This document shows, in pieces, positions 41,201 to 50,479 of a stretch of 64,000 bases of DNA. This stretch comes from Bradyrhizobium canariense (GTDB lineage Bacteria > Pseudomonadota > Alphaproteobacteria > Rhizobiales > Xanthobacteraceae): NCBI RefSeq assembly GCF_900105125.1, contig NZ_LT629750.1:4739001-4803000 (forward strand). Direction: 5' to 3'. The translations under genes were made by a program, and so were the position numbers. The notes below the pieces were generated by a model that was not told the origin of the DNA, did no database searches, and saw only the letters and a program-made list of their open reading frames with translations. Numbering within the stretch: the first letter of the stretch is position 1; the number at the start of each line of letters is the position of its first letter.

Positions 41201-42889
41201 TCACACTCTCGTCATATCGAACTGCGCCTTCTGTCCGGTGCCGTAGCGCCGCAGCGCGCCGTCTTCGCCGACCGCATTGGGGCGCTGGAAGATCCAGTTC
41301 TGCCACGCCGTCAGGCGCGAGAAGATTTTCGATTCCATGGTTTCGGGTCCGACGAAGCGCAGATTCGCTTCCATGCCGGTGAGGCCGTCAGGCGAAAAGC
41401 TGGTGCGCTCCTCGAGGAATACCCTGACCTCGTCATCCCAATCGATGTCGTCGAGCGCAAAGGTCACGAGGCCGAGTTCTTCGGCCGCCTCCGCATCGAT
41501 CGCTTCGCCGATTTTCTGTTGTGCGCGATCCAGATCGGACGGGTCGGCCTGGAAACGCGATTGCAGCCGGGTCAGGCCGTGGCTCATCGGATAGGGCCCG
41601 AAATTCATTGCGGTCAATTCGATCGTCGGCGGCGCGCGATTGTCGCCCTGCTTCTGGCCAATCAGCATGTAGGAACGGTCGGCGGCGAACACGAGTTCGG
41701 CCAGCGTGCCGACAAAGCACGAGCCCGGCTCGACCAGCGTCACCAGCGTGCGCGAGGTGACGTCGATGCGCTTCAGCACGCGCTTCCAGTACTGCCTGAT
41801 TTCGTTGACCAGCCAATGCGCTTTGTTGGCCTCGAGAAATGCGTCGCAGGCAACGACATTGGCGCGGTCGCCGTGCGACTTGAACAGCAGCATCGCGGTC
41901 TCAAGTTCATTGATGCGCAGATGCAGGATCGCATCATCCAGCTCGCGCGCGACCTGGAGCGGCCAGAACGACGCGCCTTGCGCAATCATGCCGTCGATAT
42001 CGGCAGGCGGCGCCACGTCCGGCGCCTTGATCGAGATGGTCGCGATGCGCTCGGCTCGCGCGATATCAACACTGACATGGCCGTAGCGAATACTGTTGTC
42101 GTCGATGCTGCGGGATAGTGGCGTCAGCGCGATGCCTTTGCCGTTGCCGGCGCGCGTGGAGGCGGCGGCGAATTCCCTGGCGCGCTCGGCAACTCTGGCT
42201 TCGAGCTTGCTGTTGGGCACGATCTCGTCGACCAGCCGCCATTGCACCGCGCGCTTGCCCTTGATGCCTTCCTCGATGGTACAGAAATAATCGGCGTGGT
42301 CGCGGCGCACCTTGCGCTTGTCGACCACGCGCGTCAGTCCGCCGGTGCCCGGCAGCACCGCCAGCAACGGCACTTCCGGCAACGCGACGGCCGCAGCGCC
42401 GTCGTCGGCGAGAATGATATGATCGGTCGCCAGCGCCAGCTCGTAGCCACCGCCGGCCGCAGTGCCATTGATCACGGTAATAAAGCGCTGTCCGGAATTT
42501 TCGCTGGAGTCTTCGAGACCGTTGCGGGTCTCGTTGGTGAATTTGCAGAAGTTCACTTTGTGGGCGTGGGTCGCGCCCGCCAGCATCCGGATATTGGCGC
42601 CGGCGCAGAACACGCGGTTCTTGGCTGAACGCACCACCACCACCTTCACGCCGGGATGCTCGAAGCGCAGCCGCTGCACCACGTCGGCCAGCTCGATATC
42701 GACACCGAGATCGTAGGAATTCAGCTTGAGCTGATAGCCTTCGAACAGGCCGCCATTCTCGTCGACATCCATGGTCAGCGTCGCGACATCGCCCGCGACA
42801 TCGAGCTTCCAGTGCCGGTAGCGCGACGGATCGGTCTGGAAATCGATGTATTTCGCGCTGCCCGCGAGGACGCGATCTTCACCGGCCAT
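41201..42889 (-). CDS. boxC: 2,3-epoxybenzoyl-CoA dihydrolase BoxC
   Basis: 562 residues from ATG 42889 (AAGGGTGG upstream); the open frame to 43036 runs across the transposon end and is not native. BoxC is a two-domain crotonase-fold enzyme that opens the epoxide ring of 2,3-epoxybenzoyl-CoA with two waters, giving 3,4-dehydroadipyl-CoA semialdehyde and formate. The first crotonase half is clear (VVVVRSAKNRVFCAGANIRML; INGTAAGGGYELALATDHIILADD; LPEVPLLAVLPGTGGLTRVVDKRKVRRDHADYF). The second half (SCFVGTLAELVFAADRSYML) is diverged, as in the family. Its upstream region was invaded by an IS1595 element. Confidence 0.94.
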   Translation of the reverse strand: MAGEDRVLAGSAKYIDFQTDPSRYRHWKLDVAGDVATLTMDVDENGGLFEGYQLKLNSYDLGVDIELADVVQRLRFEHPGVKVVVVRSAKNRVFCAGANIRMLAGATHAHKVNFCKFTNETRNGLEDSSENSGQRFITVINGTAAGGGYELALATDHIILADDGAAAVALPEVPLLAVLPGTGGLTRVVDKRKVRRDHADYFCTIEEGIKGKRAVQWRLVDEIVPNSKLEARVAERAREFAAASTRAGNGKGIALTPLSRSIDDNSIRYGHVSVDIARAERIATISIKAPDVAPPADIDGMIAQGASFWPLQVARELDDAILHLRINELETAMLLFKSHGDRANVVACDAFLEANKAHWLVNEIRQYWKRVLKRIDVTSRTLVTLVEPGSCFVGTLAELVFAADRSYMLIGQKQGDNRAPPTIELTAMNFGPYPMSHGLTRLQSRFQADPSDLDRAQQKIGEAIDAEAAEELGLVTFALDDIDWDDEVRVFLEERTSFSPDGLTGMEANLRFVGPETMESKIFSRLTAWQNWIFQRPNAVGEDGALRRYGTGQKAQFDMTRV

Positions 42890-42924: not shown

Positions 42925-42938
42925 TGCACAATAATGCA
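42925..42938. promoter_or_regulatory. Candidate BoxR operator 1 (TGCA-N6-TGCA)
   Basis: TGCA at 42925-42928 and 42935-42938, six bases apart, 36 bp before the boxC start. From memory, BzdR and BoxR of Azoarcus bind direct TGCA repeats with this kind of spacing and release them on binding benzoyl-CoA. boxR is encoded in the same cluster, so this is a plausible repressor site. Confidence 0.6.
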
Positions 42939-42974: not shown

Positions 42975-42988
42975 TGCATTTTGTTGCA
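42975..42988. promoter_or_regulatory. Candidate BoxR operator 2, at the transposon edge
   Basis: A second TGCA-N6-TGCA at 42975-42988, centred exactly 50 bp from the first. It straddles the transposon boundary: its last three bases (42986-42988) are the end of the element's inverted repeat. The uninterrupted host sequence would have read TGCA-N6-TTCA. Confidence 0.5.
42978..42985. repeat. Target-site duplication, left copy
   Basis: ATTTTGTT directly left of the element; the same eight bases follow its right end at 46694-46701. An AT-rich 8-bp duplication is what IS1595-family transposases make. Confidence 0.85.
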
Positions 42989-43009
42989 CATTATAACCTT
43001 GACAAAGCA
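42986..43009. repeat. Left terminal inverted repeat
   Basis: 24 bp beginning GCACATTATAACC and ending GACAAAGCA, an exact reverse complement of 46670-46693; the match ends at 43010. Confidence 0.92.
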
Positions 43010-43017
43010 AGATGCAA
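42990..43017 (-). promoter_or_regulatory. Outward promoter at the transposon end
   Basis: On the minus strand TTGCAT (43017-43012) is followed after 16 bp by TATAAT (42995-42990), a good housekeeping promoter that points out of the element toward boxC, 100 bp away. The -10 box lies inside the terminal repeat. Both candidate BoxR operators lie between it and boxC. Confidence 0.5.
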
Positions 43018-43080
43018 TGCCGCATACGGATGCCACTCCCGAACAAGCTGATTTGCCTGCGGGGGTTGGCGCGCCCGATA

Positions 43081-43857
43081 TTACTGTTCACCTGTCGGCT
43101 GATTCCCCTCCGGGGAAGAACTTCCTTTTGCGCTCCGCTCCGCGTGGAGACGGCGCGCTTCCTTTTTTGCAGCCCTCGCCCGGTCAAGTTCCAACTGTGA
43201 CGGTGTGGGTGTCGGGGGTCCGCCTAGAGCTGCCTGAGCCTTTGCTACATGAAGGGCTTTCTCTGTTTCGTCTATCCACTGGGGCACATGTTCGAGTGGA
43301 GGATTATGCAAAGGCGGTTGCGTCGGTATTGGAGGCCTTGGAAAGGGGTTCTCGGATACTCGTCCTGCCTGCCGATTGATTTCGCCGTTGATGAAGTTAA
43401 GCATCTCCATTGTGGCATTGAAGTAATCAAGCTGCTTTTGAAGTAGCTCGATATCAACGTGTTTCCAGTCGTGAGAAAAGTTCGTGTTTTTCGCTGAGTT
43501 TTGCAGGTCAGCAAAATACACGCCGCTATCGGGTTCGGCTTCATCGCCCCAATTGCAATGGGCATATTGGTTGCGTATGGAAACGCAGTGCCAAATCATC
43601 GGTGTGACAATCTTCTGCTCTTCTTGCAGGCCCAGAACTTCCGCCGCTGGCACCATTAACCGCAAGGCGGCTTCGATTCGTGGCGATGTCGCTCTCAGCC
43701 CATAAAGCATCGCCAGAACGTGGTTTATGAGTTTGTGGGCGATTGCTGTATTGTAGCAGGCGGTAACTTCAATCTCTCCGAAGGACGCCAGGATGTGGCC
43801 GATCAAGGCCCCCTCTGCTTGGTGTCTGCGAAATGCAGGGTTGATATACATAGCCAT
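43081..43857 (-). CDS. HEPN-like passenger protein
   Basis: 258 residues from ATG 43857 (or ATG 43851). The long open frame upstream to 44034 is antisense to another gene and looks non-coding. The helical N-terminal half contains SIRNQYAHCNW, which fits the R-x4-H motif of HEPN domains (RNxxxH), a fold found in many RNA-cutting toxins and defence proteins. The C-terminal third is Pro-rich, then charged (DRARAAKKEARRLHAERSAKG). No family is recognised with certainty. It ends about 70 bp from the left transposon end. An RNase or toxin role is inference. Confidence 0.65.
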   Translation of the reverse strand: MAMYINPAFRRHQAEGALIGHILASFGEIEVTACYNTAIAHKLINHVLAMLYGLRATSPRIEAALRLMVPAAEVLGLQEEQKIVTPMIWHCVSIRNQYAHCNWGDEAEPDSGVYFADLQNSAKNTNFSHDWKHVDIELLQKQLDYFNATMEMLNFINGEINRQAGRVSENPFPRPPIPTQPPLHNPPLEHVPQWIDETEKALHVAKAQAALGGPPTPTPSQLELDRARAAKKEARRLHAERSAKGSSSPEGNQPTGEQ

Positions 43858-44047
43858 GCCGAAGACCGACCCGGTGAAAGAGATTGAACTGCACCCCGAC
43901 GCATGGGAGCGCTTTGAGCGCGCCGCTGGTGTAGTAGCGAAAGCTCCCCCGCAGCATCGGGTGGCGAAAGAGAAGTCTCTAAAGGCCAATCCGAAAGTGA
44001 AGAAAGCGGTGAAGAAGTCTCGCAAAACAACCAATAAAGCGGGTTGA
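43856..44047 (+). CDS. Small basic passenger protein
   Basis: 63 residues. A short acidic/hydrophobic start (MPKTDPVKEIELHPDAWERFERAAGVVAK) is followed by a very Lys-rich tail (NPKVKKAVKKSRKTTNK). Its ATG at 43856 overlaps the start codon of the divergent HEPN-like gene within a single CATG. No domain is recognised; the shape would suit a nucleic-acid binding partner. No strong ribosome site is visible, so it is less certain than its neighbours. Confidence 0.5.
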   Translation: MPKTDPVKEIELHPDAWERFERAAGVVAKAPPQHRVAKEKSLKANPKVKKAVKKSRKTTNKAG

Positions 44048-44086
44048 ACTCCTATCGCTAGACAATTTCAGCGATATGATCGTTAA

Positions 44087-44452
44087 ATGGTGGGGACCAG
44101 TGTCAAACAAATATTGGAGGCGGTTGGCGTCAGCGAATCCTCGCTGGATGGGGTCCGACTTGCACAGGGTGTTGTGGGAAAATCGAGTTACGTAGCGGGT
44201 GTAGCCCTGCTGGCCCTATTAGTTGTCGCCTATTCACTGAGAGATTCTGGCTACCTACTCGCAGTCGCTTGTTTCATTGTGGTATTGTTTTTTGGCTATT
44301 TCGCCGGCGTGCTTTGGTTCGCCAACAAACATCCGGATATGGCCCTTTTGGAGGGGGCCGAATTAGTAAAATGGCGGCAGATAGAAATGGCCGCCAAGGG
44401 TCAGCCCGCGCTCCCGAACGCAACCCAGCAAGTCATTGGGGGCGAGTCTTGA
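44087..44452 (+). CDS. Two-helix membrane passenger protein
   Basis: 121 residues: a soluble N-terminus (about 30 residues), two adjacent hydrophobic helices (YVAGVALLALLVVAYSL; LLAVACFIVVLFFGYFAGVLWF) and a cytoplasmic-type tail. No family is recognised. Its stop is followed after one base by the start of the SinR/Cas2-like gene, so the two are translated together. A small two-helix membrane protein next to a nucleic-acid-type protein is a layout seen in defence systems, but no function is shown. Confidence 0.65.
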   Translation: MVGTSVKQILEAVGVSESSLDGVRLAQGVVGKSSYVAGVALLALLVVAYSLRDSGYLLAVACFIVVLFFGYFAGVLWFANKHPDMALLEGAELVKWRQIEMAAKGQPALPNATQQVIGGES

Positions 44453-44453
44453 G

Positions 44454-44801
44454 ATGGCTAAAAGTTTTTATGCAGTAATGATCCGGTGGGACATTCTCCC
44501 GACAGAAGCTAAGGTCAGCGAGATTGACGCAACCTTGGGAGTGTTGGGGGACTGGTTGCGGTTTGGGGGGCACAACTGGCTCATTTGGTCTGAAAGTACC
44601 CCGTCGCAGATTTATGCAGCCCTTGCTGGGAAGCTTTCGCAAAAAGATAGCGAGTTGATCGTAAATTTTGACCCAAACTCCTATTCCGGTTGGGCCCCAA
44701 AATGGGTTGACGACTGGATTACTCAGCGTCGCGACGGAGCGTTGAAAGTCATCAGTCCTCCGTCGCCGTCTTTCGCATCACTTTTCGAGCCAAAGCCCTA
44801 G
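44454..44801 (+). CDS. SinR/Cas2-like passenger protein
   Basis: 115 residues from ATG 44454. The layout matches the short ferredoxin-fold SinR/Cas2-like proteins: a first strand MAKSFYAVMIRWDI, then LGDWLRFGGHNWLIWSES, then PSQIYAALAGKLSQKDSELIVNF, then GWAPKWVDDWI. In that family the order is strand, helix, W-rich strand, helix, strand, and a GWLP..WdWl-type ending. The C-terminal tail is Pro/Ser-rich. Cas2 proper is an adaptation nuclease; these relatives stand outside CRISPR loci and have unknown roles. It is coupled to the upstream two-helix membrane protein. Confidence 0.65.
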   Translation: MAKSFYAVMIRWDILPTEAKVSEIDATLGVLGDWLRFGGHNWLIWSESTPSQIYAALAGKLSQKDSELIVNFDPNSYSGWAPKWVDDWITQRRDGALKVISPPSPSFASLFEPKP

Positions 44802-44830
44802 AGAGCTTAGTTGTCCGTCAAAAGGACAAC

Positions 44831-45133
44831 CTAAGCGGCCTTGGCGGCCGATGCCATTTCGATTGTTTCTAGATCGCGCTTGATCTTGGGCTTTGTCACT
44901 TCCACGGCATATCGAGCCTGAAGATTGAGCCAAAACTCAGGAGTGGTGCCAAGCGCCTTGGCGAGACGGAGTGCCGTATCGGCAGAAATGCTAGTCTGCT
45001 CGCTCGCGATCCGCTCGATACGTGTGCGAGGAATGTGGCAACGTTCTGCGAGGGCATATGCTGTGAGGCCCATAGGCACCATGAATTCCTCGCGAAGAAC
45101 TTCGCCGGGATGAAGGGGTGCTAACTTGGCCAT
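44831..45133 (-). CDS. higA: HigA family antitoxin
   Basis: 100 residues with a helix-turn-helix of the HigA/VapI type: LHPGEVLREEFMVPMGLTAYALAERCHIPRTRIERIASEQTSISADTALRLAKALGTTPEFWLNLQARY. This start (HPGEVLREEF) and the TPEFWLNLQ ending of the domain are the family signature. It neutralises HigB and represses the operon. It follows higB by 14 bp, the toxin-first order usual for HigBA. Confidence 0.93.
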   Translation of the reverse strand: MAKLAPLHPGEVLREEFMVPMGLTAYALAERCHIPRTRIERIASEQTSISADTALRLAKALGTTPEFWLNLQARYAVEVTKPKIKRDLETIEMASAAKAA

Positions 45134-45147
45134 CTCTAACTCCTATT

Positions 45148-45435
45148 TTACTTATGGTAATCGGTGAACTCTACTTCGTGCGCGTCGCCGTCGTCCCATC
45201 TAAAGCAGATACGATATTGGTCATTGACCCAAATGGCATGTTGACCTTCTCGATCATCCTCAAGTGGGTGAAGTTTGTTGTTTGGTGGGGCCTTCAGGTC
45301 CTTTAGTTCATGAGCCGCATCGATCATTCTTAGCTTACGTCTGGTGACGCTTTGCAACTGAGCTGGAAACCCCTTCGGGCATTCTCCATCAAAGATTGCC
45401 TTGGTGAGGTCATTCGCAAAGCTCTTGATTGGCAT
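45148..45435 (-). CDS. higB: HigB family toxin (RelE/ParE superfamily)
   Basis: 95 residues from ATG 45435, nine bases after AGGA; upstream frame to 45492 crosses the operator. Motifs MPIKSFANDLTKAIFDGE, RRKLRMIDAAHELKDLKAPPNNKLHPLEDDREGQHAIWVNDQYRICFRW and VEFTDYH match HigB, a ribosome-dependent mRNA endonuclease. The conserved R-x-C-F-x-W and final His are intact, so the toxin is probably functional and would help keep the transposon. Confidence 0.92.
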   Translation of the reverse strand: MPIKSFANDLTKAIFDGECPKGFPAQLQSVTRRKLRMIDAAHELKDLKAPPNNKLHPLEDDREGQHAIWVNDQYRICFRWDDGDAHEVEFTDYHK

Positions 45436-45449
45436 CGCCAGTGTCCTAC

Positions 45450-45503
45450 AACGTATCATCAAGTGATACGTTCCGCAAGAAGAACGTATCATAAACTGAT
45501 ACC
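45450..45503. promoter_or_regulatory. Tandem higBA operators
   Basis: Two palindromes of the form GTATCA-N5-TGATAC. The first (45450-45472) is a perfect 9-bp inverted repeat and ends 14 bp before the higB start; the second covers 45483-45503. Their centres are 33 bp apart, about three helical turns, which suits cooperative binding by HigA or the HigBA complex. Confidence 0.75.
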
Positions 45504-45664
45504 AAGGTTAGCTAACTATTTGTTAAGGTGTGTAATTTTGGAGAATTGGACTTGGGGACTTTTTGAAGTTGCGAGATCTATATCACGCAACCTAGCGTGC
45601 CCGCCAGTATTTGACGAATCAAGGCTTTGGTTTCGGTTGATTGGCCTTCCAGCGCAAAAAGCGC

Positions 45665-46630
45665 TTAGCCTTCAGCTTGAACGTCTTTGCGGTTAGGCCG
45701 TCGATAGGTCAGCCTCTTGCCAACGATGCCTTTTGCAAGCTGGTTGGCGCGATCGGTATCGTCCACGCCAAGGGCAATGCGGTTGTTATGGCGGAAGTCA
45801 AATTCCGCCAGATAACGATGCAAATGCTTTTCGGCGCAATGCTGGTAGGTACCGCGCATGCCGCGCTTGAACACTGAGAAGTAGCTTTCAATCGTGTTGG
45901 TTGTGATGAGCGTTTCGCCTTCACGGCGCGCGTATTCATCCTCTTGATGGTTGACTGTATCGTGGCGCGAAAACTCAGCGCCAAGCTTCTTATAAATCTT
46001 CGCTTGGTCGCTCATGAGGTGGGCTTCTTTGGAAACGTTGGCGCGAACGATCGGCGCTACATCGTCCACGGTTGCGGTCGCAACATGGAAGCTGCGGACC
46101 TGTCCGGTCTCACGATCAAGCAACGAAAGGACCGTGTTTTTATGGCCCGCGCCAGCTCGCTTCTTTTTAACGCCTTGCAAGCGGCCAATGTAGGTTTCGT
46201 CAACCTCAACCGCGCCGCCATCCTCGCCCATCGGCGGGACTAGGCCGCCAACGCGCATGGCCTCACGCAGGCGGTGCATTAGAAACCACGTCGATTTGTA
46301 GCTGATGCCCAGCATACGATGGACCTGATGGGCGCTAATTCCCTTCTTGGAGGCGGTCATCAGGAACAGGGCGGCAAGCCACTTGGTCAGAGGGATTTTG
46401 GAGCGCTCGAATACGGTGCCAACGGTCACGGTGAACTGCTCACGGCAGGCCGGTTCGTTGCACTGGTAGACGCCCGGACGGTGAGCCTTGCCCTCAAGCT
46501 TGGTGATCTTGTCCTGATCGGCATTGCCGCAATGCGGGCAAACCCGGCCATTTGCCCAAACACGGGCTTCTAGCCAGTCGCGGGCCTTGGTTTCATCGAG
46601 GAATATAGGGTTTTTGAGAAGATCGGCCAT
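45665..46630 (-). CDS. IS1595 family transposase
   Basis: 321 residues. The N-terminal zinc ribbon (CPHCGNADQDK, then CNEPACREQF) is the IS1595 type. It is followed by a helical region (WLAALFLMTASKKGISAHQVHRMLGISYKSTWFLMHRLREAM) and the ISXO2-like catalytic domain. That domain has VDETYIGR for the first Asp, LMSDQAKIYKKLG for the second, and HRYLAEFDFRHNNR near the end, as in the DDN(K/E) group. The frame is intact, so it is probably active. It reads inward from 38 bp inside the right inverted repeat. Confidence 0.95.
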   Translation of the reverse strand: MADLLKNPIFLDETKARDWLEARVWANGRVCPHCGNADQDKITKLEGKAHRPGVYQCNEPACREQFTVTVGTVFERSKIPLTKWLAALFLMTASKKGISAHQVHRMLGISYKSTWFLMHRLREAMRVGGLVPPMGEDGGAVEVDETYIGRLQGVKKKRAGAGHKNTVLSLLDRETGQVRSFHVATATVDDVAPIVRANVSKEAHLMSDQAKIYKKLGAEFSRHDTVNHQEDEYARREGETLITTNTIESYFSVFKRGMRGTYQHCAEKHLHRYLAEFDFRHNNRIALGVDDTDRANQLAKGIVGKRLTYRRPNRKDVQAEG

Positions 46631-46669
46631 CTGGGTTGCTCCAATGTCAGCAATCTACCCATGGTCGTC

Positions 46670-46693
46670 TGCTTTGTCAAGGTTATAATGTGC
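46670..46693. repeat. Right terminal inverted repeat
   Basis: 24 bp, exact reverse complement of 42986-43009. It contains a TATAAT reading outward, but no matching -35 box is seen on this side. Confidence 0.92.
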
Positions 46694-46701
46694 ATTTTGT
46701 T
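46694..46701. repeat. Target-site duplication, right copy
   Basis: ATTTTGTT directly after the right inverted repeat, identical to 42978-42985. Together with the host bases that follow (TCATG) it shows the pre-insertion sequence. Confidence 0.85.
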
Positions 46702-46794
46702 TCATGCGCGCCGGCTCCGCGTTCGGCATTTCCCTGACGAAATCTGACCTCATGACGCGGGAAATAGCCGGCTAAGCGGCGGCGCACCGTCTGC

Positions 46795-49493: not shown

Positions 49494-49570
49494 ATAGAAA
49501 GCCACCAGCTGCGCTTGCTGTCAATCCTCATCGGCATTATGTTTCCGGGAACGTGCAGTCACGGGCGGAT

Positions 49571-50479
49571 ATGACCGAAAATCTCGATCCCGAAACCGGC
49601 TTTCTCCAGCAACTCGGCCAGCGCGTCCGTACCATGCGTGCGCTTCGCGGCATGTCGCGCAAGGTGCTGGCAAAAGTCTCCGGCATTTCCGAGCGCTATA
49701 TCGCGCAGCTCGAAAGCGGCAAGGGCAACGTCTCGATCGTGCTGTTGCGCCGGGTGTCGAATGCCATGGGCGCGCATCTGGAAGATCTCATTCCCGCATC
49801 CGAACCGTCGCCGGACTGGCCCGTGCTCCGCGACCTCCTGCGCAAGGCGACGCCGAGCCAGATCGCGCAGGCCAAGGATGTGCTTGCAGGTGGCGGCGCG
49901 TCGGCGCAACGGCAAGTATCGTTCGCCGGCATCGCCTTGATCGGGTTGCGCGGCGCCGGCAAATCCACGCTTGGCAAAATGCTGGCAAAAAAAATCGGCT
50001 GGAATTTCGTCGAACTGAACAAGGAGATCGAGCAGCAGAACGGATTATCCGTTGCCGAGATCATCGCGCTCTACGGCCAGGAAGGTTTCAGGCGGATGGA
50101 GCAGGCAGCGCTTAGTCAATTGCTGGCGCGGCGGGAGTTGATGGTGCTGGCGACCGGCGGCGGCATCGTCTCCGAGCCCCTGACCTTCGACCTCATCCTG
50201 TCGTCGTTCTACACCATCTGGCTGAAGGCCGAGCCGGAAGAACACATGGCGCGGGTACGCCGTCAGGGCGATCTGCGTCCGATGGCGGATGACCGCTCGG
50301 CGATGGCAGAATTACGCAACATTCTCGTGAGCCGCGAACCGCTCTATGCGCGGGCCTCGGCCGTGGTCGATACCGCGGGCCTCACCGTCAATGATGCGGC
50401 CGCGCGCTTGATCGATGCGGTCGCGCCGGTATTGCACAACGATGCGCCCGCATTTGGGATCCGCAGCGCGGCGTCTTGA
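49571..50479 (+). CDS. boxR: Benzoate pathway regulator BoxR (HTH plus shikimate-kinase-like)
   Basis: 302 residues from ATG 49571. The N-terminal XRE-type helix-turn-helix (about 12-75: LGQRVRTMRALRGMSRKVLAKVSGISERYIAQLESGKGNVSIVLLRRVSNAMG) is fused to a shikimate-kinase-like domain (about 120-290) with P-loop LIGLRGAGKSTLG and ATGGGIV. This architecture defines the BzdR/BoxR family, in which the kinase-like part senses benzoyl-CoA and the helix-turn-helix represses the catabolic genes. It is divergent from the ligase gene. Candidate TGCA-N6-TGCA operators lie before boxC. Confidence 0.93.
   Translation: MTENLDPETGFLQQLGQRVRTMRALRGMSRKVLAKVSGISERYIAQLESGKGNVSIVLLRRVSNAMGAHLEDLIPASEPSPDWPVLRDLLRKATPSQIAQAKDVLAGGGASAQRQVSFAGIALIGLRGAGKSTLGKMLAKKIGWNFVELNKEIEQQNGLSVAEIIALYGQEGFRRMEQAALSQLLARRELMVLATGGGIVSEPLTFDLILSSFYTIWLKAEPEEHMARVRRQGDLRPMADDRSAMAELRNILVSREPLYARASAVVDTAGLTVNDAAARLIDAVAPVLHNDAPAFGIRSAAS

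Follow-up and report, generated by a model that had tools for sequence, protein, structure and literature searches.

A passenger-carrying IS1595-type transposon with a probable preference for an operator-like palindrome upstream of boxC and a candidate exchangeable HEPN-like gene slot in Bradyrhizobium

An intact transposon lies within the benzoate gene cluster of Bradyrhizobium canariense, and this raises the question of whether it reached this position by chance together with a ready-made set of defence genes or whether insertion site and cargo follow rules of their own. The stretch of DNA analyzed here (the window; 64,000 nucleotides, positions 4,739,001 to 4,803,000 of contig NZ_LT629750.1) contains an IS1595-type element of 3,708 bp (42986-46693), which we compared with its relatives in the genus and family (G and L numbers are our handles for genomes and loci). 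The data obtained are probably best explained by a passenger-carrying IS1595 transposon lineage that prefers one operator-like palindrome upstream of boxC and carries a swappable slot for HEPN toxin or defence genes. The original prediction, which was made from the letters of the window, missed this recurrent, operator-like insertion target.

The element lies between two exact copies of an 8-bp target duplication (ATTTTGTT; AACAAAAT on the boxC strand), a boxC-proximal one at 42978..42985 and a distal one at 46694..46701. Its termini form a perfect pair of 24-bp inverted repeats with the tip GCAC, located at 42986..43009 (cargo end, plus strand) and 46670..46693 (transposase end, minus strand). 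The transposase (45665..46630, minus strand, 321 amino acids) has an unbroken frame and combines an ISXO2-like DDE domain with a zinc ribbon, and its matches to PF12762 (E 1.8e-33), PF12760 (E 2.4e-9) and NF033547 (187.8 bits, cut-off 75) were all above cut-off. Together with the inverted repeats and a duplication size that is typical of the IS1595 family, these properties identify the element as a member of this family. Its surroundings are an aerobic benzoyl-CoA (box) cluster with boxC (TIGR03222), boxB (TIGR03225) and a benzoate-CoA ligase gene (TIGR02262). The insertion adjoins boxC, which encodes the 2,3-epoxybenzoyl-CoA dihydrolase (41201..42889, minus strand), and is bordered on the other side by an alpha/beta-hydrolase-like gene, as judged by eye. 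Thus, the boundaries, perfect ends and exact duplication of the original prediction were correct, and profile matches and box genes bore out its intact IS1595-type element with unbroken transposase, cleanly inserted in a benzoate cluster.

When the end repeat was searched with up to 3 mismatches in 265 genomes of the genus, it was present in 13 of them. Both ends were found for 10 genus elements, including that of the window, and all 10 are bordered by exact 8-bp duplications, which led us to reject a chance pairing of ends. In the genome of the window, the only match to the element was the window copy itself. We delimited 35 elements, 1.6-3.7 kb in length, in 53 genus and family sources, and exact 8-bp duplications were present in all 35; a further, 36th row (L094) turned out to be a false pair and was discarded, and 17 transposase-matching loci (including L050, L051 and L107) could not be delimited. 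Elements with a transposase at least 65% identical to that of the window (n = 15) are called close elements below. A plasmid search with the transposase yielded 37 records at E 1e-60, all of them below 60% identity.

Here, we found that 8 of the 13 end-bearing genomes are filled at the same 8 bp upstream of boxC. The flanks of six full elements (window, G402, G458, G509, G527, G329) align to this one site, and two further Bradyrhizobium genomes carry imperfectly preserved or assembled copies: G153 has a decayed one without transposase match and with ACTTTGTT on both sides, and in G513 the copy is distributed across two contigs, each of its ends bordered by AGCAAAGT. The transposase end points away from boxC in six of the eight (for G153 inferred from the strand of its HEPN gene) and towards it in G329 and G513. 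Between filled genomes, the boxC-side flanks are 83-87% identical. The 5' region of boxC was found in 261 of the 265 genomes and the upstream region was read in 94 of these 261; for the others, emptiness of the site was inferred only from the end-repeat and related genus searches. The other five end-bearing genomes carry the element at a second recurrent site, called site B (G407, G524), or elsewhere (G322, G545, G497).

At the target itself, the duplicated 8 bp form the exact centre of a palindrome. All 92 genomes compared (92 of 92) have a palindrome with at most 2 mismatches to TGAA-ACAAAA-TGCA that begins 91-135 bp ahead of boxC, and a second one of the TGCA type lies exactly 50 bp further in 76 of the 92 (51-54 bp in the rest). 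In the window, TGCA-ACAAAA-TGCA was created at the boxC-proximal junction (42975..42988, minus strand), TGAA-ACAAAA-TGCA was kept at the distal junction (46691..46704, minus strand), and the second conserved palindrome (O1, TGCA-TTATTG-TGCA; 42925..42938, minus strand), which is nearer to boxC, is untouched. Because the element tips begin with GCA (16 of 16 tips at the boxC site), both junctions rebuild the palindrome, so that, once the element is in place, TGCA-N6-TGCA is found towards boxC and TGAA-N6-TGCA at the distal end. In three genomes (G298, G336, G410), TGCA replaces TGAA in the absence of an element, and no end repeat was seen there in the up to 500 bp inspected upstream. A further operator-like palindrome, often TGCAACAAAGTGCA, lies about 11-22 kb from the boxC one in G320, G395, G401 and others among the matches listed. 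For this remote copy, match counts in the eight filled genomes revealed nothing beyond the contribution of the junctions themselves, except for one 3-mismatch match in G402, so that it provides no test of targeting.

According to one part of a study on BzdR (PMC6678401), the operator regions OR2 and OR3 of this regulator hold TGCA(N6)TGCA, which is A-rich in OR3. The sites upstream of boxC follow this pattern imperfectly: they lie in a benzoyl-CoA promoter and have an A-rich spacer, but in 82 of 92 genomes one half of the empty site reads TGAA. A BzdR/BoxR-type regulator is encoded in the window (49568..50479, plus strand, PRK08154) and is the presumed ligand of the palindromes, which would then be BoxR binding sites.

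To compare tips and targets across the collection, we used 27 sites, with the boxC copies collapsed to one and site B to two. Tips matched the flank following the duplication at 75 of 162 positions vs 48 expected, and none of 20,000 shuffles reached 75. Shuffling within transposase clades (26 sites) gave 70/156 vs 50.8 expected (p 0.00035), and in the third clade taken alone the match was 37/60 vs 23.3 (p 0.0025). In addition, target flanks tend to dyad symmetry (39/78 vs 29.3 expected, p 0.01). At L113, two elements sit side by side across one 8-bp spacer, each beside the tips of the other. Site B (GAACGTGCAGGC - GGCCGAAT - AGCGGTACGGAT; loci L042, L046, L083, L097 and L098) is intergenic and located near a glnS-like gene, as judged by eye. 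It was entered by transposases of separate clades (G407/G524/G422 and G473, G404), and in an rpoB tree its five genomes belong, together with G509, to a single host group. That a tRNA serves as the site B target was rejected, no tRNA being present in the five loci; among 19 loci scanned only L049 was positive, with a tRNA-Arg 618 bp beyond its element.

Independence of the boxC insertions was assessed on trees and duplication alleles. On a boxC tree (480 bp, 94 genomes, 8 filled), rooted at the midpoint and with weak branches counted, 8 changes are required to explain the eight filled sites, and a single gain would entail 36 losses. The rpoB tree (29 of 30 genomes, 6 filled) requires 6 changes. 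The duplication is the allele of the nearest empty relative in seven of the eight filled genomes, namely AACAAAGT in G402 and G153, AGCAAAGT in G513, and AACAAAAT in G527, G329, G458 and the window, the nearest empty relative of the latter being distant (0.19). In approximately unbiased (AU) tests, placing the transposases of window and G527 together, which is how their hosts group, was rejected (p 0.024), as was this group plus G322 (p 0.043); two other host-like groups (p 0.43, 0.37) and a single boxC clade (p 0.07) were not rejected. Taken together, these sequence comparisons make repeated insertion at the boxC site appear well supported.

Other histories might produce the same distribution. 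A single old insertion upstream of boxC could have been passed on vertically, with loss from most species and many replacements of its middle part; this would account for the close grouping of the six boxC-site transposases, which includes G322 from another site, and for transposase DNA identities (78-86%) that are little below those of boxC (86-90%); moreover, some host-like transposase groupings were not rejected. Such a history is highly improbable in our view, since each of the 36 losses on the boxC tree would have had to leave a clean empty site, within each genome the two duplication copies agree in the local allele, the element occurs in both orientations, and it is the host-tree grouping of window and G527 that was rejected (p 0.024). 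Spread of one insertion between species by homologous recombination in conserved flanks, without repeated transposition, is also quite improbable. Recombination among soil bacteria is common and the boxC-side flanks are indeed similar (83-87%), but the boxC 5' ends beside the elements sit among empty relatives in the tree and the duplication alleles differ accordingly, so that every such event would require cross-overs confined to a few bases at either side; the inverted copies in G329 and G513 also speak against it. Alternatively, insertion may be random and clustering at boxC may reflect survival, only operator-keeping insertions being seen. Rebuilding of the operator is exactly what such selection would favour, but a genome of about 8 Mb has many neutral sites, and without targeting it is difficult to see how one 8-bp site would be occupied in 8 of 13 end-bearing genomes. 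Site B was likewise entered by transposases of separate clades, and we consider survival without targeting very improbable. Repeated insertion by a transposase that would target the palindrome is the reading we prefer.

Which part of the cargo belongs to this lineage? The ten genus elements, that of the window among them, have in common the transposase (69-92% identity to that of the window) and a small basic protein, and beyond these two we saw only a 31-residue match of an end open reading frame (ORF) between the window and G458. The small Lys-rich protein of the window (43856..44047, plus strand, 63 amino acids; core ELHPDAWERFERAxxVVAKxPPQHR) is a conserved passenger, found in 15 of 15 close elements, including those without a HEPN-like gene, always on the strand opposite to the transposase and in most of them 49-63 residues long. 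Since differences in its 25-codon core fall mostly at third codon positions (1190 of 1799 pairwise differences), we consider it a real gene. No Pfam family matched the six of these proteins examined, the G509 protein had no match in plasmids or phages, and in some of the more distant elements a regular-expression scan detected small frames that are rich in Lys and have a proline stretch of similar kind.

Head-to-head with the small gene, 11 of the 15 close elements carry a HEPN-like gene, which in the window encodes a protein of 258 amino acids with the motif RNQYAH (43081..43857, minus strand). In all 11, the ATG codons of the two genes overlap on the palindrome CATG (43855..43858 in the window). 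HEPN-like proteins of close elements are 19-57% identical vs 67-93% for their transposases, as illustrated by window and G509 (22% vs 90%), G232 and G239 (19% vs 93%) and G402 and G232 (57% vs 71%). We read this divergence as probable exchange of the gene in a fixed slot. For searches, a HEPN-like profile was built from 19 proteins, some of them chosen by the R-x4-H pattern; it matched in 20 of the 35 delimited elements, 19 matches being the training set and the twentieth G458, where the gene extends beyond the element (324 amino acids, stop 119 bp past the end). The R and H of the R-x4-H motif (R-N-x3-H), which is characteristic of HEPN proteins, are invariant in 15 of 15 aligned proteins (the window protein and 14 others, 13-29% identical to it), of which eight come from the motif-influenced training set and seven from outside it (L158, L164, L167, L170, L171, L173, L174).

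Among 24 further HEPN-bearing loci (distant, undelimited or transposase-less; inspected by eye), 13 show the CATG overlap with a similar-looking small Lys/Arg-rich frame, the overlap is decayed in G153, and 10 have none. No clear CATG overlap was seen by eye at 12 free-standing HEPN genes without transposase match in their loci, L268 having a doubtful 41-residue frame. Small basic and HEPN-like genes occur together without transposase match in L255 (G349) and with a 52-residue transposase remnant in L256 (G536), which suggests that the cassette outlives the element. The genome of the window contains a second, free-standing HEPN-like match (RNKYAH; G000:C1:1506330-1506944, L254), which was flagged with two internal TAA codons, yet the local ORF is open. 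L263-L267 and L269 contain further HEPN-like genes of the free-standing type; these have the sequence RNE(L/F)NHCM(F/Y), and their loci gave no transposase match.

The remaining cargo of the window is of a different kind. HigB, a RelE-fold toxin (45148..45435, minus strand), lies beside the helix-turn-helix antitoxin HigA (44831..45133, minus strand), and matches above cut-off to PF05015 and TIGR02607, respectively, identify them as a type II toxin-antitoxin pair. A small membrane protein of 121 amino acids (44087..44452, plus strand; hydrophobic stretches by eye) is encoded directly upstream of a 115-residue protein (44454..44801, plus strand). The latter had no Pfam, NCBIfam or PADLOC family match; its only matches were to PHROGs of unknown function, PHROG 1090 (E 3e-5) and phrog_6378 (E 0.0084). 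The HEPN-like, small basic and membrane proteins likewise had no Pfam or NCBIfam family above cut-off, and plasmid searches with the HEPN-like and 115-residue proteins (E 1e-5) and the membrane protein (E 0.01) gave no matches. None of HigB, HigA, the membrane protein and the 115-residue protein had a blastp match (E 1e-3) in any open frame of the 34 other delimited elements. Of 195 genus genomes, no more than 2 gave a match to the 115-residue protein, namely that of the window and another at 27%. These four genes look like late additions to the window copy.

It can be seen from these data that the original prediction of the cargo held in part. HigBA was confirmed, the SinR/Cas2-like label of the 115-residue protein was not, and the HEPN-like label is supported by the R-x4-H motif conserved in relatives, although no curated model matched above cut-off. 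A non-accidental cargo was found for the small protein and for the HEPN-like slot with its CATG overlap; HigBA and the membrane and 115-residue proteins are one-off. The defence- or addiction-like character of the cargo stood, but one conserved five-gene module did not: the same cargo had been expected across copies of the element, and it differs between them, which the original prediction itself had named as a refutation. That the whole set (HEPN, basic protein, membrane/SinR-Cas2 pair, HigBA) forms one compact mobile defence or addiction module has in its favour that all genes lie within one intact element and that HigBA matches a known addiction pair. The set was, however, not found in the other 34 delimited elements, where the small basic gene and the HEPN slot alone recur, and with four of its genes lacking any match there we rejected it as one module and give it hardly any credence. 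A better alternative, which we still consider unlikely, is that the small Lys-rich and HEPN-like genes serve the element in transposition regulation or target choice and not in defence. The constant presence of the small gene opposite to the transposase strand in all 15 close elements, even without HEPN, would agree with this. On the other hand, the hypervariable HEPN slot (19-57% at 67-93% transposase identity) fits a conflict effector better than a transposition factor, and close elements without HEPN-like gene still have ends, duplication and an open transposase frame.

For the palindrome-preferring lineage with an exchangeable HEPN slot, the following mechanism can be proposed. The transposase would join the element into TGA-AACAAA(A/G)T-GCA (AGCAAAGT in one species) and duplicate the central 8 bp. 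With GCA as outer bases, both junctions would again read TG(A/C)A-N6-TGCA and the boxC-side palindrome would stay; the host pathway would presumably still be regulated, making the site a harmless dock. The freight would pair the fixed small Lys-rich gene head-to-head with a HEPN-like gene that can be exchanged, their starts overlapping on CATG, to which one-off extras may be added, in the window HigBA and the membrane/115-residue pair. The HEPN-like protein may act as a toxin of the RNase type or as an effector of abortive defence, the small protein would restrain or regulate it, and new HEPN genes would be swapped into the slot; RNase activity, toxin/antidote relation and a defence role are thus predictions from sequence. 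A more far-reaching version is that the transposase reads the BoxR palindrome as its target, that its tips have turned into operator half-sites, so that every insertion would copy the operator and keep the host pathway under regulation, and that the safe dock moves a hypervariable HEPN slot, CATG-locked to an antidote-like gene, as a new kind of mobile toxin or defence cassette. This version is tentative, and we lean somewhat against it.

Several observations weigh against the proposed lineage. The 92-94 genomes read at boxC were mostly top-ranked matches and not a random draw. The 27 sites of the tip and flank comparison are not fully independent; the window clade alone was not significant (14/42 vs 9.4, p 0.06), and the second clade, which contains site B, lacked the signal (19/54 vs 18.1, p 0.42). 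For G509, whose duplication is AACAAAGT, the closest empty relative is G404, which carries AGCAAAGT, and the two that follow carry AACAAAGT; moreover, the A/AAT allele is common and the allele match says little for four of the eight filled genomes. AU tests reject host-like transposase groupings weakly or not at all. Four of the 15 close elements lack the HEPN-like gene; among these, G545 yields only a 27-residue frame, CATG is absent from G524, and in G407 and G005 the small gene lacks an ATG start. The HEPN profile also matches free-standing genes, with some match in 46 of 126 genus genomes (E 1e-4). No curated HEPN model matched above cut-off (Csx1_HEPN E 0.021, Csm6 HEPN E 0.015, RiboL-PSP-HEPN E 0.0084), PADLOC matches were also sub-threshold (best E 0.011), and the PDB search gave no match, the best hit being a CCR4-NOT subunit (E 0.083).

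Two minor features of the window element lie at its ends. A promoter-like pair, TTGACA-17-TAGATT (46652..46680, minus strand; consensus match only), has its first hexamer within the transposase-end repeat. At the opposite end, the repeat supplies a TTG start (TTGACAAAGCA, M-T-K-Q in the window) to an end ORF of uncertain coding status (42999..43379, plus strand), which overlaps the HEPN-like gene in antisense. Such TTG starts (TTGACAAAGCA, M-T-K-Q/H) also occur at the non-transposase ends of G458, G527, G005 and G407; the start is loosely conserved and the remainder variable.

DDE insertion sequences are usually loose in target choice, and if the preference described here is real, a single 320-residue transposase would achieve natural harmless docking. 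A fixed small gene that shares its start with an ever-changing HEPN-like gene provides a simple search rule for further cassettes, and mobile cassettes of this kind, with toxin or defence genes, may form a large and so far unrecognised family in Hyphomicrobiales. The nearest known systems are the transporter insertion sequences (tIS) of the IS1595 family, which were reportedly described by Siguier, Gagnevin and Chandler in 2009. The elements resemble them in the ISXO2-like DDE transposase with zinc ribbon, short inverted repeats, 8-bp duplication and passengers unrelated to transposition, and differ in the one recurrent operator-like site, the tips that rebuild the target palindrome and the conserved small-protein/HEPN cassette. 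IS1595-family tIS are cited in a section of PMC3129680, and tIS in general are described in a section of PMC9330008; our searches of the open-access literature brought up no account of these distinguishing traits, be it IS1595 elements that home on an operator or HEPN passengers in them. IS30 inserts into nearly palindromic hot spots or beside its own inverted repeats, as stated in one part of PMC9333248. This is reminiscent of the dyad symmetry of target flanks and of the L113 pair, which shares an 8-bp spacer beside the tips. IS30 belongs, however, to another transposase family, and we know of no IS30 element that homes on the operator of a regulator or rebuilds it. Tn7 at attTn7 and similar safe-site elements insert repeatedly at one conserved, harmless chromosomal site and bring varied cargo, as do the elements studied here; in contrast to Tn7, these have a single small DDE transposase, insert within a palindrome and not beside a gene end, and no targeting proteins were recognised in them. 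As for the cargo, HEPN toxin systems such as HepT-MntA and the HEPN RNases Csm6/Csx1 share with it the R-x4-H motif, a mobile or toxin-like context and a small partner gene, whereas the HEPN-like sequence found here stays below curated thresholds and its partner is not a nucleotidyltransferase but a small Lys-rich protein, encoded head-to-head with overlapping starts.

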